Part shown: positions 10,495-26,717 of the stretch, in pieces | Position numbering within the stretch: position 1 is the first letter of the stretch | How the letters are laid out: every line of letters starts with the position of its first letter | Origin: Streptomyces sp. NRRL F-5135 | Lineage (GTDB): Bacteria; Actinomycetota; Actinomycetes; Streptomycetales; Streptomycetaceae | DNA length: 64,000 bases | NCBI RefSeq assembly: GCF_000719775.1 | Contig: NZ_JOHR01000009.1 | Span: 372,001-436,000 of the forward strand | Direction: 5' to 3' | Made by a program: the position numbers and the translations under genes | The notes under the pieces: model-generated | Told to the model about the DNA's origin: nothing | Seen by the model: the letters and a program-made list of their open reading frames with translations, nothing else | The model's database searches: none

Positions 10495-10569
10495 GGCCGT
10501 GTGCCCGAGTGGTTCAGGGACTCGCCTGCAAAGCGAGTTACGCGGGTTCGATTCCCGCCACGGCCTCCA
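10495..10569 (+). tRNA. tRNA-Cys (GCA)
   Basis: The acceptor stem GGCCGTG pairs with CACGGCC. The anticodon stem CTCGC/GCGAG encloses the loop CTGCAAA, giving anticodon GCA. The T-arm is GCGGG-TTCGATT-CCCGC. The discriminator is U, as expected for tRNA-Cys, and CCA is encoded at 10567-10569. Confidence 0.95.
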
Positions 10570-14530: not shown

Positions 14531-15754
14531 TCACCCGCGCCGAGAACGTATGACGGGTACGGCAACGGCCGCACCGAGCACGACCGCGGCACCGACACCC
14601 AGGCCGATCCACAGACCGGCGCCGCCGCTCTTGTCAGCCTCAACGGCGGCCGTCGAGGGCGACGCCTGGGCGTCGTTGTCCCCGGCCGCAGCCGACGATG
14701 ACGCCGACGCCTCGGCCTCGGCCTCGGCCAGATCCGACAGCGGGTACTCGTCCGCGGGCCCGGGATCACCAGGCGTCGTGAGCGCACGCAGCGGCCGGAC
14801 GGCGCCGTAGCCGACGTAGTCGTTCCGCTTGACGCCGTCGGTGGGGCCGCTGACGGTGTTGAGCATGACCCGGAGGACCTGGTTGTTGGTCCAGTCCGGA
14901 TGCTTGGACCAGATCAGAGCGGCGCTGGCGGAGGCGATGGCGGTGGCGGCACTGGTGCCGTGTCCCGTGCACAGCCCGGTCTTTCCGCCACAGGCGTGGA
15001 CCATTTCTTCGCCAGGTGCAGAGACATCCACTTGAGGTCCGTATTGCGACTCCTTGGTCTTCTTCCCCTCCTTGTCGAGGGCCCCCACCCCGACGACGCC
15101 TGGAGTCCCGGCCGGAAATTCCAGCCCATTCCCTTCATCGGCAGTGTTGCCCGTCGAGGCGAAGATCAACGCTCCTTTTTCAATGGCATAATTGACAGCA
15201 GACGCCAGTGCCTGCGACCCCTTTCGTGACCCCATTGATATATTAATGACTTTCGCACCATTATCGGCCGCATAGCGAATGGCGATCGACACGGACTTGT
15301 TGAACTCCTGCACCTTGGAAACGCGATTGGCATCCCAATCCGCGTCCCGTATCCTGACCGGAAGGATTTTTGCTCCCGGGGCCAGCCCGTAAGCTCCGTC
15401 CCCTCCCCCGCTCTTGCCAGTGCCAGCAATGAGCCCAGCCATTCCCGTCCCATGGCCGTCATAGTCGTTACGCTCATCACCCGCCGAGTCCGAGGCAAGG
15501 TCTTTGCCCTTCAGGACCCGCCCCTGGAGGTCCGGGTTCGTAGCGTCTACCCCGGAGTCGATGACCGCGACAGTCACGCCCTCACCCCTGCTGATCTTCC
15601 AGATCTCATCCGCCTTCATGGCATCGAGATGCCACTGCTGAGAGCGGATGGAATCCGCATAAGCCGGAGCCGGCGCGCTGCCCACCAGCAGAGCCCCTAG
15701 TACAGCAAGGACAGTTGCCGGGCCTCGGCCCATCCAGGGGGTGTTGGTGCGCAT
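14531..15754 (-). CDS. Mycosin-like subtilase (S8), copy 2
   Basis: Mycosins are membrane-anchored serine proteases of type VII secretion, acting outside the membrane. The protein has 407 residues from the ATG at 15754. A signal peptide (VLAVLGALLVGSAPAPAYA) precedes the catalytic domain. The triad is intact: Asp in VAVIDSGVD, His in DGHGTGMAGLIAG and Ser in GHGTSAATAIASASAA. An Ala/Ser/Glu-rich linker leads to one C-terminal transmembrane helix (GLWIGLGVGAAVVLGAAVA) and a short basic tail (RSRRG). It is closely similar to 18170-19591 (SKHPDWTNNQVLRVMLNT is shared). It lies 28 bases after the WXG-type gene. A patch around 15.17-15.26 kb is notably AT-rich for this genome. Confidence 0.9.
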   Translation of the reverse strand: MRTNTPWMGRGPATVLAVLGALLVGSAPAPAYADSIRSQQWHLDAMKADEIWKISRGEGVTVAVIDSGVDATNPDLQGRVLKGKDLASDSAGDERNDYDGHGTGMAGLIAGTGKSGGGDGAYGLAPGAKILPVRIRDADWDANRVSKVQEFNKSVSIAIRYAADNGAKVINISMGSRKGSQALASAVNYAIEKGALIFASTGNTADEGNGLEFPAGTPGVVGVGALDKEGKKTKESQYGPQVDVSAPGEEMVHACGGKTGLCTGHGTSAATAIASASAALIWSKHPDWTNNQVLRVMLNTVSGPTDGVKRNDYVGYGAVRPLRALTTPGDPGPADEYPLSDLAEAEAEASASSSAAAGDNDAQASPSTAAVEADKSGGAGLWIGLGVGAAVVLGAAVAVPVIRSRRG

Positions 15755-15782
15755 ACGCTCGTTCGCTCCGCTTTCTGCGAGA

Positions 15783-17216
15783 TCAGTCGATAACCGGCGG
15801 CACAATGCGCCGACCGCTCCGCTGCCAGGTCTCCTCGTCCTCCACGAGGTAGTCCGGCCGTTCGCCTGTCGTCTCGTCACGACGTTTCGGCGCCTTGCCG
15901 ACACGTGGCGGTGTCGCTCCGTTTCGCACCAGGCCTGTCCCTCCAGGAGTGAAGGCTCTACCACCGGTACCCGGCTGCTGCGGGCGTCCTCCGACGATGC
16001 CACCGTTCTCCCCTGCCAGCCGACGCCCGGTCATGCCGCTCTGAGCAGGCCCTCCACCCAGGCCACCACCAGCACCATGTGCCATCGGTGGACGGCCGTG
16101 GACAGGGCTCTCTCCGCCGACAACCATCCCTCGTGGCAGGGCACCCGAGCGGCCGGAAGCAGGGGGGACCGGACGGCCTCCGGTGATTCCTCGCTCAGCC
16201 GGTGCGCGCCCGACAGGTCCAGCATTGGGCCCTGTCTGTCCGGTCAGCGATGGAGGACGTGCGCCCCCCGTCCGCCCAACGTTTGGCAAGTTCTGCGGAG
16301 GGGAGCCATTCCTGCCGAGAGCCGGCGGTATGTTCGGCGGGACGGGGAGCGCCAGCCCCTCAGGTTTGCCGACGGCCTGCGGAGCATTGGGCGTTGTGGG
16401 AGTAGCAGTCACCGGCGATTGTGTATCGACACTGGCGATCTCGGTTGCCACCGGAACGTCCGGCCGTGTCACCTGAGTAGGGGACAGCGAGTTCCCGTAA
16501 ATCGCGGGAGTCACCGCTCCTTCGACGCTGCCGTTGCCGCCGCCCATCGTATGGGTCGGTCCCCCACCGAGGTTCGCGGTTGTGTCAGTGCCGCCCCCAC
16601 CAGAGCGCGCCAGGTCGTGGGTGGAGATCCGTGCTTCCCCACGCGGAACGAACTCCGTCGGCGGCGGCTGAAACGTCGGCACCTCCAGCTTGCCCATCTG
16701 CGTCTGCGAGTGCTCGTACACGTTCGCGAGCCTTCGCATCTGAGTCGCCGCCTCCAGGCGGTTCCGCTCCGCATCCGTCGCCAACGTCGACGACGACTTG
16801 CCGATCACCAGGTCCGAATCCGGGTCGTTGGGCGCGTTCAAGGCCGCCGCCAGGTTCGCCTTGGCCCCCGCGACATCGCGCGGAATCGCGCTCTGCGCCT
16901 CGGCGATCGCGTTCGAGGCGTGGCCCAGCCATTGCGAAGCGCCGTCGCTGTACTCCGCCAGCCGGAACGTCGCGCTCGCCAGGCTCGCGCTCCATTCGAT
17001 GAACGCCTTGTAGCCCTCTCCTTGCCACTCCACCCGCTCGGGACGGGCCTTGAGCTGCTCCGCGATCTCGCGGATCTCGCCGGCCGCCGCGCTCAGCGTG
17101 TCAGCGGCTCCCTGCACCGCCCCGCTGTCGGCTCGGTCGAGCCAAGAAAGCATGTCCTCGTGCGACATGTCTTCGAAGGGGGTCGAGCCGCCCCCGCTGC
17201 GGTTCTGCTGGTCCAC
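15783..17216 (-). CDS. WXG-motif protein with C-terminal tag, copy 2
   Basis: The protein has 477 residues. About residues 1-190 are helical and contain WQGEGYKAFIEW, the W-x-G turn of the WXG100/PPE fold. A long Pro/Gly-rich, probably disordered, region follows (repeats such as GRAPAERGITGGRPVPPASG). The last residues, RPDYLVEDEETW..GRRIVPPVID, are almost identical to the end of the paralogue at 19619-21100. No signal peptide is present. The architecture fits a type VII substrate whose tail is a recognition or processing signal, possibly for the adjacent mycosin (inference). Confidence 0.82.
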   Translation of the reverse strand: MDQQNRSGGGSTPFEDMSHEDMLSWLDRADSGAVQGAADTLSAAAGEIREIAEQLKARPERVEWQGEGYKAFIEWSASLASATFRLAEYSDGASQWLGHASNAIAEAQSAIPRDVAGAKANLAAALNAPNDPDSDLVIGKSSSTLATDAERNRLEAATQMRRLANVYEHSQTQMGKLEVPTFQPPPTEFVPRGEARISTHDLARSGGGGTDTTANLGGGPTHTMGGGNGSVEGAVTPAIYGNSLSPTQVTRPDVPVATEIASVDTQSPVTATPTTPNAPQAVGKPEGLALPVPPNIPPALGRNGSPPQNLPNVGRTGGARPPSLTGQTGPNAGPVGRAPAERGITGGRPVPPASGRSGALPRGMVVGGESPVHGRPPMAHGAGGGLGGGPAQSGMTGRRLAGENGGIVGGRPQQPGTGGRAFTPGGTGLVRNGATPPRVGKAPKRRDETTGERPDYLVEDEETWQRSGRRIVPPVID

Positions 17217-17331
17217 TCACCTGCCCCGTCCGTCTTCGCGCCCCTCGACGTAATCGTCGCACCGCCCGACGCGCCACCACCACTGTGGAAACCCGCATAC
17301 CGCGTACCGCTACGGGAATCCGTCGACCGAA

Positions 17332-17913
17332 TTACGCGAACCCGCCGACCCCGGCCGTACCGGCGTCGCCCGGGCTCGACCCGTCGGCGCGCTCGCTGGG
17401 CTGGGTGGGCTCGTTGGGCTCGTTCTGCGGTTTGTTCGCGTTCGCCACAGTCTCCGGAGGGTGCGGATCGCGCCGCGGATCGTAGTGTTCCTCGGCGTTC
17501 TGGTAGATCATCCGCATGCGCCGACGGATATCGTCGTCGAGTTGACCGAAACCGTCCTTCGACGCGACGACCGCGATCCCCATCCCCTCCAGAGAGTTCG
17601 ACAGCAGCCCGGACAACTGCTTCAGCTGGTCGATGACCGTCTGGTACGACGTGAACAGGCCCGCCGCCTCGGTCCAGGCGCCCCCTCCACCGCCGAACTG
17701 TCCACGTTCCAGCGGCTCGGCGGCCACCTTCTTCCGGCCCGCCGGTGAACCCTCGAGCTTGGTGATCAGCTCATCCACCCGGTTCTTGAACGAACGCATC
17801 GACTCCGGGTCGTAGACCACCGAAGTCGCCACAGGGCTGTTCACCCTGCGCTCGATTTCCTCCGGGCTCAGCGGCCCCGACGACCAGCCCCAGCCACCAC
17901 CTGCGATCGACAT
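17332..17913 (-). CDS. Coiled-coil ESX-like partner, copy 2
   Basis: The protein has 193 residues from the ATG at 17913 (MSIAGGGWGWSSG). The helical core matches the paralogue at 21118-21642: SFKNRVDELITKLE near the N-terminus, then DDDIRRRMR and EEHYDPRRDP before a hydrophilic tail. No signal peptide is present. It lies 115 bases before the WXG-motif gene and begins the second cassette. It probably forms a helical complex with the WXG-type protein (inference). Confidence 0.78.
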   Translation of the reverse strand: MSIAGGGWGWSSGPLSPEEIERRVNSPVATSVVYDPESMRSFKNRVDELITKLEGSPAGRKKVAAEPLERGQFGGGGGAWTEAAGLFTSYQTVIDQLKQLSGLLSNSLEGMGIAVVASKDGFGQLDDDIRRRMRMIYQNAEEHYDPRRDPHPPETVANANKPQNEPNEPTQPSERADGSSPGDAGTAGVGGFA

Positions 17914-18169
17914 GGTCTCCCCCCACGCACCAGCACATCGACCCCTTACCTTAACGACCTCGGATACGGCCGTTGACCTCTTATGACACCGATGCACACG
18001 GTCCCAGCCGCAAACCCTCTTCCGCGTACGGCCCGCATGCGCCGACCCGCGTGCGCAGGCCGACGAGCGCCTCCCGGTGGTTCCGTATCCGGGCCTGGAT
18101 CCGGGCAGCCTCGGCCCCGGCTGGTGCCACCGGCCGACTCACACAGGGCACGGCTCAGCTGGTGAAGCC

Positions 18170-19591
18170 CTATGAACCAGGTCCCTGTGGGTGGGCGGGA
18201 GGAGTCTGCGGCGTCGAGCCGGGGCGGTGAGGCGAGCCGTCGTAGGGCGGATACGGCGGGTTGGTCTGCTGGTGCTGGTAGGGCTGGTGTTGGTAGGGCT
18301 GGTGTTGGTAGGGCTGCTGCTGGTACGGGGGGAAGGCCGGAGCCGTCGGCTGTTGCGACGAGAGCGCGGCCCTGCGGCGGGAACGGACTACAGCCACCGC
18401 GACAGCTCCGCCGATGAGCAGAGCCGCGCCGACGCCGAGCCCGATCCACAGCCCTGTGCCACCGCCTTCGTCGGAAGCGGCTGCCGCCGCGGGATTCTCC
18501 TCGTCGGTGCTGGAATCGCCTGCCGCCTCGGAGGCGTTGGGCGAAGGAGATGCGGAAGCCGCCTCCTTGAGGTCGGGGAGCGGATACTCACCGGCCGGCC
18601 CCGGGTCCCCCGGATTAGTCAGTGCGAGGAGGGGACGTACAGCGCCGTAACCGACCTGGTCGCTTCGCCTGTCGCCACCCTTGACGCCGCTGGCGGTGTT
18701 GAGCATGACGCGCAGCACCTGATTGTTGGTCCAGTCGGGGTGCTTGGACCAGATGAGGGCGGCGGAGGCGGAAGCGAGGGCGGTGGCGGCACTTGTTCCG
18801 CTGCCCTCACAAAGTCCAGTTCCACCTGTGCAGGCATTGGTGATTTCCTCACCGGGGGCCGAAATATCCACCTCTGGACCGTACTGGGACACGCTCATAC
18901 GAGAGGCTTTTCGATCCAGCCCGCCAACTCCGACCACACCCGGCGTGGACGCCGGATACTGCGGATCGTATCCCAATTCGCCACCATTACCCACGCCAGC
19001 AAAAATCAGCTTGTTTTTGTCGTGAGCATACTTCACGGCCTTCGTGAGCTCAGCGGATCCTCCGTTACCGGCCACCGAGATGTTGATGATCTGTGCGTCA
19101 GAGTCCGCGGCAAAGCGGATGGCTTCGCTCATACTGCCCGCGAAAGTGTCGCGCGCAGATTTCTCCCGCATCCGCTCCTGGCTGTACTGGATCCGAACGG
19201 GAAGAATCTTGGCCTCGGGAGCAAGGCCGTAGGACCCCTGGGCCGGTCCCCGCCCGCCCATTCCCGCGATCAGCGAAGCCATTCCCGTACCGTGATTGTC
19301 GATGTCATTGTTCTCATCGCCGGACAGTTCCGAGAAATCCCTTCCTTCGAGGACTTGCCCCTTCAGATCAGGAATCGTGTCATCAACACCCGAGTCGAGC
19401 ACGGCGACGGTCACCCCGCGCCCTTTGCTGATCTTCCATGCCTCGTCGGCCTGCATGGCGTCCAAATGCCACTGCTGTTCTCGCACTGTCTCGGCATGAG
19501 CGGGAGTTGCCGCGATCGCCAGCAACGCCATCCCCAGAGCGGCCGACGCCACGGCCCTTGCAGCTGCCGACCGCTCAGAGTTGATGCGCAT
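18170..19591 (-). CDS. Mycosin-like subtilase (S8), copy 1
   Basis: The protein has 473 residues from the ATG at 19591, chosen because GAGGGG sits 5 bases upstream. An ATG at 19612 has no ribosome site. The signal peptide ends TPAHA. The catalytic triad is intact: Asp in VAVLDSGVD, His in DNHGTGMASLIAG and Ser in GSGTSAATALASASAA. After the transmembrane helix (GLWIGLGVGAALLIGGA) there is a cytoplasmic tail of about 70 residues absent from copy 2. It is Pro/Gln/Tyr-rich, with PYQHQ repeated. Copy 1 is the last gene of the first cassette, 27 bases after the WXG-type gene. Confidence 0.9.
   Translation of the reverse strand: MRINSERSAAARAVASAALGMALLAIAATPAHAETVREQQWHLDAMQADEAWKISKGRGVTVAVLDSGVDDTIPDLKGQVLEGRDFSELSGDENNDIDNHGTGMASLIAGMGGRGPAQGSYGLAPEAKILPVRIQYSQERMREKSARDTFAGSMSEAIRFAADSDAQIINISVAGNGGSAELTKAVKYAHDKNKLIFAGVGNGGELGYDPQYPASTPGVVGVGGLDRKASRMSVSQYGPEVDISAPGEEITNACTGGTGLCEGSGTSAATALASASAALIWSKHPDWTNNQVLRVMLNTASGVKGGDRRSDQVGYGAVRPLLALTNPGDPGPAGEYPLPDLKEAASASPSPNASEAAGDSSTDEENPAAAAASDEGGGTGLWIGLGVGAALLIGGAVAVAVVRSRRRAALSSQQPTAPAFPPYQQQPYQHQPYQHQPYQHQQTNPPYPPYDGSPHRPGSTPQTPPAHPQGPGS
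18271..18330. repeat. 15-bp tandem repeat coding the PYQHQ tail
   Basis: Four head-to-tail 15-base units of the type GGTGTTGGTAGGGCT lie in the 3' part of mycosin copy 1. They are in frame and encode the repeating PYQHQ peptide. Unit number is likely to vary between strains. Confidence 0.85.
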
Positions 19592-19618
19592 TTTCCCCTC
19601 AAGCCAATTCATACGAGA

Positions 19619-21100
19619 TCAGTCGACAACAGGCGGCACGATCCGCCGGCTGCCCTGCTGCCAGGTCTCCTCGTCCTCAACCAGGTAGTCGGGACGCTCT
19701 CCACTCTGCTCTTCCTCGTCACGGGCGCGTGCCGGCCCACGCCCACCACGAATCAGACCAGAACCACCTGGGGTGAACGCACGCCCCGGGTTCGCCCCCG
19801 GCCGCTGGTTCCGCCCACCGACGACGCCGCCAGTCTCCGAAGCCAGCCGCCGCCCGCCGGTGAGACCGCCCTGACTCGCACTGCCTCCGCCCGCTCCGGG
19901 CATCCCCGGCGTCATGCCTCGGCCCATAGGCGCACGCCCCTGGGACGTTTCGCCCCCGACAACCGTGCCTCGCGGGATTCCGCCTGCGGGCCTTCCCGAG
20001 CTGGGTGGCACTGGACGGCCGCCGACAATGCCGGTTTCCCGGGCCAACGGCGCACGCGAGTTCAGCCCGCCTCCAGGAAGAGCAGGATTTCGGACGGCTC
20101 CTGTGACAGGCCGCATGTTGCCGGGAAGACCCGGCACCGGCGGGGCGGATCCCCTGAAAGTAGGTGGAATCAAGCCAGGAGTCGGCACTGTGGTTTCCGG
20201 CCGGGCAACCGGCTGGTTGGTGACGGGGGTTGTGGGAGAGTTCGTGGGCGCGTCCGGGAGCGTGGTAATGCCGTCGATCTCCATCGAGACCGGCGTCTGG
20301 CTCGGGACGGTCACCCCTCCCACTGCGCGCCCGACGCCGTCGATCCCACCGGGCACAACATAGTCGCTGTCGCTTGAGCCGCCCCCGCCGCCGCCTCTTG
20401 CGTAGGCGACCCCACCGACCGAAGAGGTGCCGCCGCTGTACGTCTGTCCAGGCACGGACTTATAGCTCTCCGGCATGACCCAGTCCTGGCCCATGTACAT
20501 GGCCGGAGGCGGAAACGTCGGCACCGGCTCCTTGTTGACCTGGTTGGCCGACAGCACATACGTCTGCGCCAACTTGCGCAGCTGCCGCGCGGCCTCCGCT
20601 CGCGTCGCGTCGATCGACGCCTGCGCGCTCGCCATGTCCGTCCTCGACGTCGTGGCCACCGTCCGCGCGTCAGTGTCCTTCTTCCCGGGCCCCGTGGTGG
20701 CCGCGGTGTAGTTCTCCCTCGCGGTCCGCAGGGACTCCTCGGCGTCCTCCGTCTCGGACGCCGGAGGCATGTTCTGATGGGCCTCGGCGATCGCCTGCGT
20801 GACCTGGGTCATCCACTTGCTGGCGTTGTGTGTGTAACTGGCCAGGTTGATCGTGGCGTTGGCGGTCTGGTCGCCCCATTCACGGAAGCTCTGACCGGCA
20901 TCGCCCTCCCACCTCAGGATCGACACACGCGTCTTGAGGTCTTCGCCGATCTCGCTGATCTTCTGGGCCGCCTTCTCCAGCTTCTCGGCGAGCGCCATCG
21001 CCGTTTCCTTGCTGGCGGGCGACAGCAGAGCCCGCAGCTCCGCGTGTGTCATCGAGTCGAAAGGTGTTTCTCCGGGCTCTCCGCCGACCTGCTCACCCAT
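19619..21100 (-). CDS. WXG-motif protein with C-terminal tag, copy 1
   Basis: The protein has 493 residues. The N-terminal helical domain (to about residue 190) carries RWEGDAGQSFREW, the WXG turn, near residue 64. A Gly/Pro-rich middle includes a poly-Gly run (ARGGGGGGSS). The C-terminus RPDYLVEDEETW..GSRRIVPPVVD is shared with copy 2. No signal peptide is seen. It follows the small coiled-coil gene by 17 bases and precedes mycosin copy 1 by 27 bases. Confidence 0.82.
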   Translation of the reverse strand: MGEQVGGEPGETPFDSMTHAELRALLSPASKETAMALAEKLEKAAQKISEIGEDLKTRVSILRWEGDAGQSFREWGDQTANATINLASYTHNASKWMTQVTQAIAEAHQNMPPASETEDAEESLRTARENYTAATTGPGKKDTDARTVATTSRTDMASAQASIDATRAEAARQLRKLAQTYVLSANQVNKEPVPTFPPPAMYMGQDWVMPESYKSVPGQTYSGGTSSVGGVAYARGGGGGGSSDSDYVVPGGIDGVGRAVGGVTVPSQTPVSMEIDGITTLPDAPTNSPTTPVTNQPVARPETTVPTPGLIPPTFRGSAPPVPGLPGNMRPVTGAVRNPALPGGGLNSRAPLARETGIVGGRPVPPSSGRPAGGIPRGTVVGGETSQGRAPMGRGMTPGMPGAGGGSASQGGLTGGRRLASETGGVVGGRNQRPGANPGRAFTPGGSGLIRGGRGPARARDEEEQSGERPDYLVEDEETWQQGSRRIVPPVVD

Positions 21101-21117
21101 GTCTCATCATCCCCCCG

Positions 21118-21642
21118 TCACTGACCGTCCGGTGACTCGTAGCCACCGCTGTCGCCGCCCCCGTCGGCCCGCTGGGCCCGCGTCTCCGAGTCTTCCTCAC
21201 CACGCCGGGGCTCGTTCCTGGTCGGATCGCGGTCCCTGTCGTAGTGCTCCGTGATCTCTGCGTTCAGCGTACGCATCCGCCGTCGGATGTCCTCGTCAAG
21301 ACTGTCGTAGTCCTGTCCCGAAGCGCGCACGGCGAGGTACATGCTCTCTATTTGCAGCCCCAGGACCTTCGAGAGGTTCTCGAGCTCGGTGTGAACCGTG
21401 TCGTACGCCGTGTACAGGAAGTCCGCTTCCTGGAATCCCGCGCCTCCGAGCTGGGACCGCTTCAGGCGGTCCTCGCCCACCTTGTCCGGAGCCGCCGGCG
21501 ACTCCTTGAACTCGGTCAGCAGTTCATCGACCCGCTTCTTGAAGGACTCCAGTTCACCGGCCTCGTAGATGAGGTCCTGAACGGCGCTGACCGCGCCGAG
21601 GATCCCTCCCCAGAGTCCGCCCACCCCGTTGTTCTCCGCCAC
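21118..21642 (-). CDS. Coiled-coil ESX-like partner, copy 1
   Basis: The protein has 174 residues. It shares SFKKRVDELLTEFKESP, DEDIRRRMR and TEHYDRDRDP with the copy at 17332-17913, in the same order. It is hydrophilic with an acidic/Gly tail and no signal peptide. It opens the first cassette and lies 17 bases upstream of the WXG-motif gene. Length and helical content match ESX-type partners. No family name is recognised. Confidence 0.78.
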   Translation of the reverse strand: MAENNGVGGLWGGILGAVSAVQDLIYEAGELESFKKRVDELLTEFKESPAAPDKVGEDRLKRSQLGGAGFQEADFLYTAYDTVHTELENLSKVLGLQIESMYLAVRASGQDYDSLDEDIRRRMRTLNAEITEHYDRDRDPTRNEPRRGEEDSETRAQRADGGGDSGGYESPDGQ

Positions 21643-21742: not shown

Positions 21743-24052
21743 CTACGAATTCGGTACCGCCACCGCCGCCTGCGGACGGATCGGGAGGCGGCTGACCGGG
21801 CGGCCCGTCGCGGCGCGGACCGCTGAGGCCACGGCCGCCGGGGAGGCCACCACCGGGGCCGCGCTGGCGGGTTTGGCTCCGAAGGGGGCCACCACGTCGC
21901 GTTCCTCGATGAGTTTGACGATGCGGATGTCCGGGGCGTCCAGCGCGGTCGGCAGGGCGTAGCCCGTGAGGTCCGGGCGGCGGATCAGGCCGCGGGTGGT
22001 GCGGAGGTTCTCCGTGAGGGCCGTGCCGATGCCCTGGGTGACGCCCGCCTCGATACGGGTCGCGAGCTGGGCAGGGTTCAGGATCCGGCCGACGTCCTGG
22101 GCCACGGCCATCTCGACCACGCGCACCGAGCCGAGTTCGATGTCGACGTCGACGACCGCGCGGATCGCGCAGAAGGCGAGGCCCACGAAGGCGTCGCCCT
22201 GGCCCGACTCGTCCAGGGGCTCGGTGGGGTGGGGGCGGCACTGGGCCGTCGCCCACAGTTCCTTGCCGTCCATCGCCTCCGTCACCGTCGTGGACAGCAC
22301 GCCGTCGTACGAGGTGATCTTGCCGTCGGTGATCTGGAGCAGCTCCGTGGACATGCCGAACTTGTGGGCCAGCGGCTGGAGCAGCTGCGTACGGACCATC
22401 TTGGCCGCCCGCTCCACCGCCCCGCCCGAGACCCAGGTGTGCCGGCCGTGGGCCGCCGGGCCCGCCGGGGGCTGGTCCGTGTCGACCGGGGCGACGTGGA
22501 CCTCTTCGATGCCCAGGGTCTCCTGGACGATCTGCCGGGCCAGCGTGGTGAATCCCTGCCCCGTCTCGACGGCCGCGCAGATGACCGTGGCCACGCCGTC
22601 GTGCACCTTCACCGTGGCCGTGGAGACCTCGTCCGCGCCCTCGGCGCCGAGCATGTGGACCATGCCGATCCCGTAGCCGACGCCGCGCCGGACAGCGCCC
22701 GGTTCGCCCGCGCCCTCCGGGCCGCCGGGCAGCAGCCAGGCCTCTTCCGGGGTGTCCTTGGGCAGCGGCGGCAACGGGTGTTCCCGTACGGCCTGGAGCA
22801 GTTCCGCCACCGGCGCCGGGCAGGTCACCGTCTGGCTGGTGGGCAGGATGTCGCCGGTGGCCAGGACGTTGCGGAGCCGCAGTTCGGCCGGGTCGAGGCC
22901 CAGCTTGGCGGCCAGTTTGTCCATCTGGCCCTCGTACGCCGCGCACACCTGCATCGCGCCCTCGCCCCGGACATGGCCGGACGGCGGGTTGTTGGTGCGT
23001 ACGGCCCAGCCCTCGATGAAGGCGTGCGGTACGACGTAGGGGCCGCACGCGAAGGACACCGCCGCCGCGAGCGATTCCGCCGAGTCGTCCGCGTACGCGC
23101 CCGCGTCCAGCAGGATCTGGGCCTCGACCTTCACCAGCCGGCCCTCGGTGTCCGCGTGGTGGCGGTAGCGCAGCAGCGTCGGGTGGCGGTGCGCGTGGCC
23201 CAGGAAGGACTCCTCCCGGGTCGCGGCCAGCTTGACCGGGCAGCCCGTGCGCATCGCGAGCAGTCCGAGCGGGATCTGGAAGCCGGGGTCCTCCCGGTCG
23301 CCCGTCGCACCCGGGACCCCGGTGACGACGATCTTGACCCGCTCGGGGTCCAGCCCGAAGCAGGCGGCGGCCAGGTCGCGGTCGGTGTGCGGGTCGGTGG
23401 AGGCGGTGTAGATCTCCACCCCGCCGTCCGGTCTCGGCACCGCGAGCGCGGCCTCGGCGCCGATGGGCGCCGGGTCCTGACGCCCGATGCGGTAGAGGCC
23501 CTCGACCACCACCTCGCCGGTGGCAGCCGGGTCGCCGTAGCTCAGCGGGATGTGCCGGATCAGGTTCCCTTCGGGGTGCAGCGGCTCGGCCGCGAACGCC
23601 TTCTCCGGGTCCGTCACCGGCTCCAGCACGTCGTACTCGACGGCGATCGCCGCCGCCGCCAGGCGGGCCGTGTCGGGGTGGTCGGCGGCGACCGCCGCGA
23701 TGGCCTCGCCGTGGTGCCGTACGAGCTCGGCGGCGAACACCGGGCGGTCCGCGATCCGCCGCCCGTACGACGGGTCGCCGGGCACGTCCTCGTGCGTGAC
23801 GACCGCCCGGACGCCGGGCATGCCCGCCGCCGCCGCCGTGTCGATCGAGACGATCCGGGCGTGCGGGTGCGGGGAGCGCAGGACCGCCGCCCACAGCAGG
23901 CCCTCGGCCCACAGGTCGGACGCGTACGGGAACGTGCCCTCGGTCTTCGCGCGCGCGTCGGCCGGGGCCAGGGACGCGCCGAGTCCGTGCGCGGGCGCCT
24001 CCTGTTCGGGGCCGGCCGGCGCGGGGGCCTCGGTGGCCACGTCGTTGCTCAC
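21743..24052 (-). CDS. Molybdopterin-binding subunit, xanthine dehydrogenase family
   Basis: This is the large subunit of a molybdenum hydroxylase, which oxidises aromatic heterocycles or aldehydes. The protein has 769 residues. The GTG at 24052 overlaps the preceding stop (GTGA). The aldehyde oxidase/XDH hammerhead domain (about residues 25-140) and the molybdopterin-binding domains (from about 160) are recognisable by TFPYASDLWAEGLLWAAVLRS, GLLAMRTGCPVKL and ETGQGFTTLARQIVQETLG. Near the C-terminus, where the family has the catalytic Glu (G-x-GE-P), this protein reads GAKPASAAPVVASPAAV, with Ala at that position. The substrate may therefore differ from xanthine, or the chemistry may be altered. 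It is the third gene of a three-subunit operon. Confidence 0.88.
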   Translation of the reverse strand: MSNDVATEAPAPAGPEQEAPAHGLGASLAPADARAKTEGTFPYASDLWAEGLLWAAVLRSPHPHARIVSIDTAAAAGMPGVRAVVTHEDVPGDPSYGRRIADRPVFAAELVRHHGEAIAAVAADHPDTARLAAAAIAVEYDVLEPVTDPEKAFAAEPLHPEGNLIRHIPLSYGDPAATGEVVVEGLYRIGRQDPAPIGAEAALAVPRPDGGVEIYTASTDPHTDRDLAAACFGLDPERVKIVVTGVPGATGDREDPGFQIPLGLLAMRTGCPVKLAATREESFLGHAHRHPTLLRYRHHADTEGRLVKVEAQILLDAGAYADDSAESLAAAVSFACGPYVVPHAFIEGWAVRTNNPPSGHVRGEGAMQVCAAYEGQMDKLAAKLGLDPAELRLRNVLATGDILPTSQTVTCPAPVAELLQAVREHPLPPLPKDTPEEAWLLPGGPEGAGEPGAVRRGVGYGIGMVHMLGAEGADEVSTATVKVHDGVATVICAAVETGQGFTTLARQIVQETLGIEEVHVAPVDTDQPPAGPAAHGRHTWVSGGAVERAAKMVRTQLLQPLAHKFGMSTELLQITDGKITSYDGVLSTTVTEAMDGKELWATAQCRPHPTEPLDESGQGDAFVGLAFCAIRAVVDVDIELGSVRVVEMAVAQDVGRILNPAQLATRIEAGVTQGIGTALTENLRTTRGLIRRPDLTGYALPTALDAPDIRIVKLIEERDVVAPFGAKPASAAPVVASPAAVASAVRAATGRPVSRLPIRPQAAVAVPNS

Positions 24053-25824
24053 GCCATGCCTCCGTCGGGCGAGTGCGGGGGCTGGACGCTGCCGGCCCCT
24101 GGGGGTGCCTGGTGCGGGATCCGTGCTTCCTCGGGGGCCGCGGCGGCGGCCTCCGCGCTCGCCGTGCGTTCGGCGACGACTTCGCTCACCGCGTCGAGGA
24201 CGCCCCGGTAGCCGGAGCAGCGGCACAGGTTGCCGCAGAGTGCCTGACGGGTTTCCAGTTCGCTGGGGGCGTGGTTGCCCTCCAGCAGGTCGTGGACGGT
24301 CATGGCCATGCCCGGGATGCAGAAGCCGCACTGCACCGCGCCGCACTTGGCCAGGGCGCGCTGGACGTCGGACGGTTCGCCGTCGACGGCCAGGCCCTCG
24401 ACCGTACGGACCTCGGAACCGGCGGCCGTGGCGGCGGGTACGAGGCAGGAGGCGACCAGCCGGCCGTCCACCTGGACGTTGCACGCACCGCACTCGCCCT
24501 GTGAGCAGCCGTCCTTGGCGCCCGCGAGGCCGAGCCGCTCGCGGAGCACGTACAGCAGCGACTCGCCGATCCAGGCGTCCGTGACGGGCCGGTCGGTGCC
24601 GTTGACGCGCAGCACGTACGAGCCGGAGGGGTGTTCCACGCTGTCGCCGCTGGTGGTCAGCGGGGCGGGGTCGAACCCGGCCGCGGCGGCCGGGCCCGCG
24701 GTGTCCGGAACGGATGTGTCCGGAGCGGACGCGTCAGGAGCGGGGGCTTCCACCGCGGCGCCGCCCGGAGCAGGCTCTTCCGGCACGGCGGCTCCCGGCG
24801 CGGCCGGGTCCTGGCCGGGTGCCGGGGGCGCGGGGACGTCGGCGCCGGCCGTTTCGGACGCGGCCACCTCGGGAGCGGTGCCCGTCACCGCCTCGTGCGG
24901 CCCGGCCTCGTGCGGCACCGCCTCGTGGGTCACGGCTTCCCGCGGCGCGTCCTCCTGCGGGCCGTGTGCCGGTTCCGCCTCGGCCGGGGCCCCCGGCCCG
25001 TACGCGAACTCCTGCCCAGGCACCGGCGCGGGGCCGGGCCCGTGCCCGTACTCCTGGTCCGGTACGAGACCGGGAAGGGGCACGGAACCGGTCTCCGGCC
25101 CCGGGCCGCCGTCCGCTCCCGCGCCCGGTACGTACGGCTGCTGGTCCGCGCCGGTTCCGTACGGGTCCGACCACGGCTCGGCGGTACCCCCGGGAAGCGT
25201 GGCCGCGGGGCCGCCGCCCCACTGGGCCGCCAGGACCGAGGTGCTGAACTCCCCCGACTCGTCCGGGAGATCGCCCTGGGCGACCGGGATCGTCCACCGG
25301 CCGGTCAGGTCGGAGCCGCCCTCTGTACCGCCAGCGGCCGGCCGGCCGCCGCCGTCCGTACCCGGGTCGCCGGCCAGGCCCGGATCGCCGACCGGGCCCG
25401 GCTCGTCGGCCGCGACATTCCACTGACCCGTTCCCTGCGTTCCCTGCGGGCCGTAGCCGCCCATCGCCTGCGGATCCGGCCATTGCGCGCCGCCCTCCCC
25501 GGCCGCCGGGGGCTGCTCCACCCAGCCGCCTCCGTAGGACGGCCCGGCCCCGGCCGACGGGTCGACGGCCGACGGGTCCACCGTCGGCGTCGTGATGTGC
25601 GGTGGTACGTAGCCGTGTCCGGGGGCGGCCAGCGGCGCGTCGTAGGTGTCCTCCGGAGGCAGCTGGACGAACGCGGTCGCCTCCGCGTCGTACTCGCCGC
25701 CGTGCGGGATCGGCTGCCAGCCGCCGTGCCCCTCGGAAATGCCGGGCGTGCCGGGCGTGCCCGGTTCGCCGTGGGGGCCGGGCCCCTGCCCCGGGCCCGA
25801 GCCGGAGTTCTCATTGGTGGTCAC
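24049..25824 (-). CDS. [2Fe-2S] subunit with long disordered N-terminus
   Basis: The protein has 591 residues, but only the last 170 or so match the usual iron-sulfur subunit. The plant-type cluster ligands are GCSQGECGACNVQ plus SCLVPA. The second cluster ligands are CGFCIPG and LCGNLCRCSGY. The first 400 residues are Gly/Pro/Ala/Glu-rich, low in hydrophobics and repetitive, with short motifs such as HEAVPHEAGPHEAVT. The normal family length is 150-180. The gene starts by ATGA overlap with the FAD subunit stop and ends by GTGA overlap with the molybdopterin subunit, so all three are co-translated. Confidence 0.88.
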   Translation of the reverse strand: MTTNENSGSGPGQGPGPHGEPGTPGTPGISEGHGGWQPIPHGGEYDAEATAFVQLPPEDTYDAPLAAPGHGYVPPHITTPTVDPSAVDPSAGAGPSYGGGWVEQPPAAGEGGAQWPDPQAMGGYGPQGTQGTGQWNVAADEPGPVGDPGLAGDPGTDGGGRPAAGGTEGGSDLTGRWTIPVAQGDLPDESGEFSTSVLAAQWGGGPAATLPGGTAEPWSDPYGTGADQQPYVPGAGADGGPGPETGSVPLPGLVPDQEYGHGPGPAPVPGQEFAYGPGAPAEAEPAHGPQEDAPREAVTHEAVPHEAGPHEAVTGTAPEVAASETAGADVPAPPAPGQDPAAPGAAVPEEPAPGGAAVEAPAPDASAPDTSVPDTAGPAAAAGFDPAPLTTSGDSVEHPSGSYVLRVNGTDRPVTDAWIGESLLYVLRERLGLAGAKDGCSQGECGACNVQVDGRLVASCLVPAATAAGSEVRTVEGLAVDGEPSDVQRALAKCGAVQCGFCIPGMAMTVHDLLEGNHAPSELETRQALCGNLCRCSGYRGVLDAVSEVVAERTASAEAAAAAPEEARIPHQAPPGAGSVQPPHSPDGGMA

Positions 25825-26717
25825 GACAGCGCCCTCCCCAGTGCTCGTCGGGCCAGCGCGGCGACGGTGCGCCGCAGGTGCAGTACGGCCGGCGACGGTG
25901 GGGGGACCTGCGTCCCGTCCGCCGGTGGCGGCGGGTCCGGGATACAGGCGGCCGCGACGTACTCCCCGAACGCGGCGAGGGCCTCCGGCGCCAGTCCCCG
26001 CACGCCGTCCCAGTCGATCAGCGAGGCGATCCAGCGCTCCGCGTCCAGCGGGCGCAGGGGCATCGGCGCGATGGCCCCGACCGCGCAGCGCACCCCGCGC
26101 CGCGCCGGGTCGAGCACGACGGCGACGGACGCGGTGGCCCGGCCGGGGCCGGTGCGTCCGGTCGCCTTGAGGAAGACCTGCGGGGCGTGCAGCAGCGGTA
26201 CCCGTACGAAGCCGATCAGTTCGGCGGGGGCCAGCATCTCGCGGCCCGCCAGCAGATGGGAGACGGGGACCTCGCGGCGCGCGCCGCCGGGGCCCGCGAC
26301 GACGAGGTCGGCCTCCAGGGCGGCCAGGACGGGCAGCGCGTCACCGGTGGGCGCGGCGCTGGCGATGTTGCCGCCGAGCGTGCCCGCGTTACGGATCTGG
26401 GGCGGGCCGGCCGCGCGCGCGGACGCGGCGAGCGCGGGGATGAGGGCGGCGAAGTCGGGCCTGCCCATGCGCGCGTGGGTCAGCCCGGCACCGAGTACGG
26501 CGTGGCCGTCCTGGTAGTGCCAGCCGCGCAGCTCGCTGATGCGGCCGAGGCCGACGAGTCCGGCGGGCCGCAGGAGGCCCTTGTTGACGGCCGCCATCAG
26601 ATCGGTGCCGCCCGCGACGGGCACGGCGGCGGGCATCGCGGTGAGCGCCGCCACGGCCTCGTCCAGCGAGGCCGGAAGCGTCACGGAGTGCGCCGTCTGC
26701 GGTGCGTGCGTGGTCAA
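25821..26717 (-). CDS. FAD-binding subunit, xanthine dehydrogenase family
   Basis: This medium subunit passes electrons from the iron-sulfur subunit to its acceptor. The protein has 298 residues. FAD-binding signatures are visible (VAVPVAGGTDLMAAVNKG; PQIRNAGTLGGNIASAAPTGD). The start is taken as TTG at 26717 (LTTHAPQTAH), preceded by AAAGGGG about 9 bases upstream. No ATG or GTG gives a family-like N-terminus. It is the first gene of the operon, followed by the [2Fe-2S] and molybdopterin genes with 4-base overlaps. Confidence 0.88.
   Translation of the reverse strand: MTTHAPQTAHSVTLPASLDEAVAALTAMPAAVPVAGGTDLMAAVNKGLLRPAGLVGLGRISELRGWHYQDGHAVLGAGLTHARMGRPDFAALIPALAASARAAGPPQIRNAGTLGGNIASAAPTGDALPVLAALEADLVVAGPGGARREVPVSHLLAGREMLAPAELIGFVRVPLLHAPQVFLKATGRTGPGRATASVAVVLDPARRGVRCAVGAIAPMPLRPLDAERWIASLIDWDGVRGLAPEALAAFGEYVAAACIPDPPPPADGTQVPPPSPAVLHLRRTVAALARRALGRALS

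Follow-up and report, generated by a model that had tools for sequence, protein, structure and literature searches.

The window analysed here, a stretch of 64,000 nucleotides of Streptomyces sp. NRRL F-5135 (contig NZ_JOHR01000009.1, positions 372,001 to 436,000; G+C content 71%), carries two consecutive three-gene sets, A and B, linked to type VII (ESX) secretion. Both lie on the minus strand, span positions 21642 to 14531 and repeat the order P1-W2-S3, where P1 is a small protein, W2 a larger PPE-like protein and S3 a mycosin. We consider it likely that each set is an orphan module in which a PE/PPE-like pair without EspG is accompanied by its own processing mycosin and serviced in trans by an ESX system.

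Set A consists of A1 (21118..21642, 174 residues), A2 (19619..21100, 493 residues) and A3 (18170..19591, 473 residues), and set B of B1 (17332..17913, 193 residues), B2 (15783..17216, 477 residues) and B3 (14531..15754, 407 residues); the start of B3 was set near 15754, and its mechanical open reading frame, reaching to 16003, would overlap B2. Gaps between genes were of 17 and 27 bases in set A and of 115 and 28 bases in set B, and 256 bases separate the two sets. Identity between sets was 42% for A1/B1, 45% for A2/B2 and 60% for A3/B3, far beyond chance (BLASTP E values of 2e-29, 5e-81 and 4e-134, respectively). An earlier, sequence-only reading of this DNA had described the same six open reading frames as two sets of equal order and strand, and in this it is confirmed; its interpretation as a whole is partly supported.

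Linkage of the three genes and their relation to ESX loci

Relatives were taken from one scan of a genome collection as the best 78 of 235 confirmed stretches. These loci were found by means of two W2 patterns, a choice that has no bearing on whether P1 and S3 adjoin. P1, W2 and S3 followed each other in this order in 74 of the 78 loci, giving 75 sets altogether, and thus the three genes do co-occur elsewhere, as the sequence-only reading had expected. The four loci without a clean triad (L068, L077, L081, and L093, the last two with W2 in two pieces) were left out of trees and counts. In a sample of the organism's family, W2 was matched in 46 of 61 genomes. Among 148 genomes of the class, P1 was matched in 12 (two of these matches being weak), 11 of which were among the 14 genomes of the genus, and W2 adjoined P1 in all 12.

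No EccC or EccD match was obtained in the window, so that the description of the sets as lacking secretion machinery holds at this locus; it does not hold in general, since P1 was located 5.5–17.3 kb from EccC on the same contig in 10 of the 12 P1-positive genomes (the exceptions being G163 and the window's own genome). EccC exceeded its cut-off in all 12 P1-positive genomes vs. 62 of the 148 overall, a comparison in which 11 of the 12 represent a single genus; the proximity of P1 to EccC is more telling than this co-occurrence. Two genomes of another family (L133 and L135) presented the order EccC ... Esx - Esx - small gene - W2 - S3, the small gene of L135 being assigned from position alone.

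In the window's own genome, EccC and EccD were found on two other contigs (C17 and C23), as anticipated by the proposal that the machinery is encoded elsewhere. C17, with a full ESX set, also holds EccB, EccE, MycP, and two WXG100 proteins, all over cut-off. Fifteen genomes had no EccC in the stretch read at the triad locus, and all 15 displayed EccC over the cut-off elsewhere; in the four where both could be placed on one large contig (L030, L038, L042, and L082) the nearest EccC was at least 174 kb from the triad. Since C17-type EccC adjoins the triad in relatives, the C17 ESX is taken as the likely server of the window triads. EspG (PF14011) gave no match in any of the 14 genus genomes, own genome included (best 17 candidates scored in each), and was over cut-off in 12 of the 148 genomes, all of them in one family (f4).

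A different server would be a 1473-residue protein with FHA and FtsK/EccC-like ATPase parts, encoded outside the window about 46 kb from the triads (C9:439819-444240). It matches EccC_a with an E value of 1.5e-38, and similar partial matches occur in four orphan loci, 25-28 kb beyond the limit of what was read there (L055, L082, L103, and L105, if contig numbers are read correctly). That match reaches 133 bits against an EccC_a cut-off of 509, however, the gene lies far outside the triad operon, and relatives of the triad adjoin true C17-type EccC; we therefore regard service by this ATPase, instead of the C17 or C23 ESX, as highly improbable.

Close behind eccC on C17, with two small genes between, a gene at 166019-167746 encodes a 575-residue protein with a T7SS_signal domain (PF21725; T7SS, type VII secretion system) and a C-terminal Gln_amidase papain-fold toxin domain. 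The C17 ESX may export polymorphic toxins.

P1 and W2 as a candidate export pair

All 77 aligned P1 members presented the pattern hydrophobic-x3-D-x6-hydrophobic. Position 112 was occupied by Tyr in 54 of them, Phe in 17, Ile in 4, and Met in 2; Asp116 was invariant, and position 123 was Met in 65, Leu in 11, and Tyr in one. The pattern reads Y112-x3-D116-x2-I119-x3-M123 in A1, and in B1 F replaces Y (FGQLDDDIRRRM). The full published WXG100 pattern HxxxD/ExxhxxxH, as defined in section 10 of PMC3935865, was found at this place in 56 of the 77 proteins, against at most 7 of 77 for any other of the 112 start columns. The motif DxDIRRRMR, by which the sequence-only reading had characterized P1 as a coiled-coil protein, overlaps the export pattern YxxxD...M. 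According to PMC9811218, EccCb1 recognizes hydrophobic residues of EsxB located seven positions past YxxxD/E, and in PE-PPE pairs the YxxxD/E of PE is reported to adjoin the WxG of PPE, likely forming a composite signal (PMC12209268).

It is the motif together with the gene order, and not the fold, that suggests P1 as the signal-bearing partner. The predicted fold is of moderate quality (predicted local distance difference test, pLDDT, of 73.5); the best Foldseek match, CFP-10/ESAT-6, was not significant, and a second aligner scored unrelated hairpins higher. Profile comparison with PE and with WXG100 (hhalign, one protein each) detected no similarity (0.1 and 1.1%), and a search of the sequences of solved structures gave no match below an E value of 0.019. 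PF10817 was considered as a name for P1 and rejected: it was precomputed for 21 of 22 matches, and on rescan it was found in one of five P1 proteins, below cut-off.

For W2 the prediction was considerably better (pLDDT 94.6). The six best-aligned structures were all PPE, the N-terminal domain is predicted to have the PPE fold, and the W2 profile matched an EspG-linked PPE (hhalign 94.5%). WxG was retained in 76 of 77 members, between predicted helices 31-61 and 67-110, and occupies residues 64-66 in both A2 and B2. A2 is thus predicted to contain a PPE-type domain at about residues 13-200, followed by a Pro/Gly-rich linker and a conserved C-terminal tail, which B2 shares. The WXG100 hairpin expected by the sequence-only reading gives way in these models to the longer PPE-type domain.

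We call W2 PPE-like, and not a member of the PPE family, because the N-terminal Pro-Pro-Glu motif is absent from the start of A2 and B2 as read from the sequence. The Pfam PPE model (PF00823) gave no match in A2, B2, or the genus relative L134, and stayed under its cut-off in two relatives of family f22 (23.6 and 21.5 vs. 26 bits). Against the sequences of solved structures, the best natural type VII match of the W2 profile was S. aureus EsxA (E 0.058), the sole low E-value being that of a designed coiled coil. At NCBI, 'WXG100 family type VII secretion target' is the name given to many W2 relatives; a UniRef entry is called 'PPE family domain-containing protein'.

The tail of W2 (RPDYLVEDEETW....VPPV[VI]D) was present in 74 of 77 aligned members, a figure biased because the loci were found with two W2 patterns, and in 108 of 120 proteins from a word search, a sample that is not unbiased either. 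In the own genome it was convincingly found in A2 and B2 only, the next match having an E value of 0.06. Four glycines of the linker (G357, G360, G361, and G425) were invariant in the 77 members. Within the linkers (window 19619-20500 and 15783-16616) we observed two related stretches, each ending in [VT]GGR and holding these glycines, as a repeat unit, and the tail contains YLVED, a possible second YxxxD.

The pair resembles the mycobacterial PE/PPE pairs, such as PE25-PPE41, in the predicted PPE fold with WxG, in the YxxxD-type signal of P1, in the adjacency of the two genes with the small partner first, and in the ESX linkage seen in triad relatives. In contrast to those pairs, no EspG match occurred in the genus sample, the presumed chaperone-binding tip loop of W2 is polar (consensus NDPD, KDTD in A2), W2 has its conserved tail, and P1 is longer than PE and not detectably PE by profile. 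P1 and W2 would form a PE/PPE-like heterodimer with a composite export signal, W2 contributing WxG and P1 contributing both YxxxD and a hydrophobic residue located seven positions further along. Recognition and export of the pair, without EspG, would fall to the EccC of an ESX from elsewhere in the genome, most likely that of the C17-type locus.

S3 proteins and the MycP clade

A3 and B3 exceeded the cut-off of the NCBIfam mycosin model TIGR03921 (328.6 and 333.7 bits vs. 278.75) over nearly its full length, whereas some ESX-linked S3 relatives remained under it; those of L134 and L135, for instance, scored between 245 and 273 bits. The Asp-His-Ser triad (D66, H100, S267) was intact in all 77 aligned members, the window's two included. 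The identification of these subtilases as mycosins therefore stands. A signal peptide and a C-terminal membrane helix were read by eye from the sequence, and A3 has a Pro/Gln/Tyr-rich tail beyond this helix, which is absent from B3.

S3 differed from the EccB-linked MycP at the N-terminus. In a hydropathy scan, a hydrophobic stretch was located 7-15 residues ahead of the catalytic core in 80 of 80 S3 proteins, in contrast with 25-49 residues in 13 of 13 EccB-linked MycP, and the motif G[ST]G[ED]C between this stretch and the core was found in 11 of the 13 MycP and in none of the 80 S3; the comparison was made on untrimmed frames, with called starts for five S3. S3 is thus without the N-terminal extension of MycP. 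In a tree of 77 S3, 13 EccB-linked MycP, and two further subtilases of the own genome, S3 formed one clade (0.998) and MycP another (1.0), and S3 remained a clade when three S3 from other ESX loci were added (0.913, 80 proteins). In plain sequence comparison, other subtilisins of solved structure matched B3 more closely (best E 2e-34) than MycP1 did (2e-27). A further mycosin over the cut-off, sister of the S3 clade (0.932), was observed on contig C19 of the own genome (L023:8730-10025); its surroundings (18 kb) gave no significant P1 or W2 match, and a neighboring gene encodes a 245-residue protein.

These differences bear on what S3 does. As described in PMC8131196, the copies of MycP5 in the ESX-5 structure touch mainly via loops 1 and 3 and the N-terminal extension, and it is MycP5 that enables EccB dimers to trimerize. 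S3 might likewise be a second structural mycosin that stabilizes the ESX membrane complex, or might act on a protein other than W2, its link to the pair being one of operon history only. Such a role would agree with that of MycP5, with the passing of the mycosin model by the window S3 proteins, and with the location of P1-W2-S3 in ESX operons of other genomes. Nevertheless, the extension that helps the MycP5 protease trimer to form (PMC8131196) is absent from S3, as judged from the distance to the core and the missing G[ST]G[ED]C motif; another mycosin match is already present, 11-19 kb from S3, in the EccC regions of the four genomes inspected (G059, G094, G106, and G126); and the catalytic triad is retained throughout. 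As S3 lacks the extension mediating MycP5 contacts, we infer that it is not built for the structural role of MycP5, and we deem this alternative unlikely.

The preferred reading, processing of W2 by S3, follows the analogy with ESX-1, where MycP1 removes the C-terminus of EspB (PMC9811218, PMC5156307). Like EspB and MycP1, the triad combines a mycosin with a PPE-type domain (a predicted one here) that continues into a C-terminal extension; it differs in that EspB is one polypeptide and here there are two genes, in that cleavage is a prediction here, and in that MycP1 belongs to its own ESX, whereas S3 comes in addition and falls in a different clade. With MycP in general S3 shares the near full-length model match, the catalytic triad, and the membrane anchor seen by eye, whereas it is set apart from the EccB-linked Streptomyces MycP by its separate clade, by its lack of the extension, and by its linkage to a PPE-like pair and not to EccB. 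Guided by a signal peptide of its own, S3 would cross the membrane and be held on the outer face by its C-terminal helix. There it would trim W2 within the Pro/Gly linker that joins the PPE domain to the conserved tail, the final product possibly acting as a surface or antagonism protein.

More speculatively, and with less than even confidence, the two mycosin jobs may be divided: the EccB-linked MycP with its N-terminal extension would hold the secretion complex, and S3 without it would be a cargo-specific protease travelling with an EspG-independent PE/PPE-like pair, both in Streptomyces and in one or more further actinobacterial families. Cassettes would then move as units between an ESX operon and the fixed orphan site, and by their rapid diversification at that site would resemble an adaptable surface or antagonism system.

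Two lineages at an orphan site

Set A fell in a 13-member clade without set B in the P1 tree (0.941), in the S3 tree (0.957), and with the three genes combined (1.0). The W2 tree kept 10 of these 13 A members together (0.936), that of the window included, and the W2 of the window's set B fell in a 40-member clade free of A members (0.979). A recent local tandem duplication is thus ruled out, the two sets occupying separate clades for P1, W2, and S3. The sequence-only reading had proposed that all three genes were duplicated and diverged together; the sets do act as units in the three trees, but what adjoins here is two diverged lineages. Only one locus among the best 78 of 235 (L060) had two complete sets, one of them A and the other not A (P1, S3), in the order B then A, the reverse of the window; its A member of W2 grouped with L036 and L037, apart from the main A group. 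In L061, L066, L045, and L037, the triad was accompanied by additional copies of W2 or S3, possible leftovers of further tandem sets.

The sets are flanked by a conserved three-gene operon (21743..26684, minus strand), which by eye we take to be a molybdenum hydroxylase of the xanthine-dehydrogenase type. As in the window, the triad lies behind such an operon in 47 of 75 relative sets, the relative of its last gene stopping 0.5-0.8 kb before the P1 stop; another 14 sets had ESX core genes in the stretch read, and for 14 the site could not be placed. The window triads are an orphan copy away from ESX genes, at a fixed chromosomal site, where an A set was found in L030, L036, L037, and L040 and a B set in many genomes. 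The arrangement of A beside B may reflect either an old pair sorted by loss or an exchange of cassettes, and we picture A and B as diverged paralogous lineages that would be inherited or exchanged as units at this site. Over 1081 pairs of site-sharing loci, median identity was 88% for the flanking dehydrogenase vs. 36% for P1, 39% for the W2 domain, and 60% for S3; divergence of the triad genes is high compared with the flank.

Codon use of the triad genes was also distinctive, G+C at third codon positions (GC3) being low, with A2, A3, B2, and B3 each under all 36 background genes; this contrast is overstated because the caller by which the background was chosen favors high-GC3 genes. Low GC3, and the absence of EccC/EccD matches from the window, would suit a pair that works without type VII export or is a relic. 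We find this improbable, as reading frames are unbroken in both sets, export motifs and catalytic triad have been kept over deep divergence, no signal peptide was seen by eye in P1 or W2, and the same site recurs in 47 of the 75 relative sets. The low-GC3 triads sit at a site that is nevertheless syntenic across many Streptomyces.

The gene group extends past 14531, the limit given to it by the sequence-only reading for its six genes: a further operon on the minus strand begins 684 bases beyond B3. It comprises C1 (13403..13846, 147 residues, with YAELD near the C-terminus), C2 (11334..13403, 689 residues, with W48-E-G near the N-terminus), and C3 (10756..11334, 192 residues, a putative lipoprotein with a lipobox-like LGATAGC by eye), overlapping by one base at each junction. 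By these motifs C1 and C2 look like a second substrate pair, C1 as possible partner of C2 and C2 as possible second type VII substrate, joined by a lipoprotein. Among the 72 relative sets with 3.5 kb or more of sequence downstream of S3, 38 had a relative of C1 or C2 there, and codon use of C2 was normal, in contrast to the triad genes. A tRNA-Cys gene (10495..10569, plus strand) comes next, beyond the gene group; it was present in 8 of 20 relative loci scanned, and the genes past it are common to many. A tRNA-Cys island was rejected as unproven, flanks being syntenic in many relatives; on the one strand searched, the window held no second exact copy, at least 14 bases long, of any part of the final 40 bases of the tRNA gene.

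In S. pratensis, Sfla_1620/Sfla_1621, a mycosin and a protein resembling the Ala/Pro-rich proteins of ESX-1, were among the core genes reported in 2014 as unusually divergent (PMC4239341). By description these resemble our S3 and W2; the account in section 11 of that paper makes no mention of a P1-like gene, a PPE fold, the orphan site, or two lineages. In the titles and abstract openings listed we found no PE/PPE-like pair or second cargo-linked mycosin in Streptomyces; an earlier mention is possible, because PMC8401907 cites work on the S. scabies ESX with a subtilisin-type protease distant from that cluster. PE/PPE proteins have been described as unique to mycobacteria in a 2025 review (PMC12209268) and as absent from other genera in a 2006 study (PMC1660551).

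A genetically tractable setting outside mycobacteria would be offered by such a PPE-like protein, which is common in Streptomyces, comes with a signal-bearing partner and a mycosin of its own, and has no detectable EspG. It would allow one to ask how PPE-type cargo is recognized and what replaces EspG, and whether mycosin proteolysis is separable from the structural role, a question that is hard to approach where one MycP does both.

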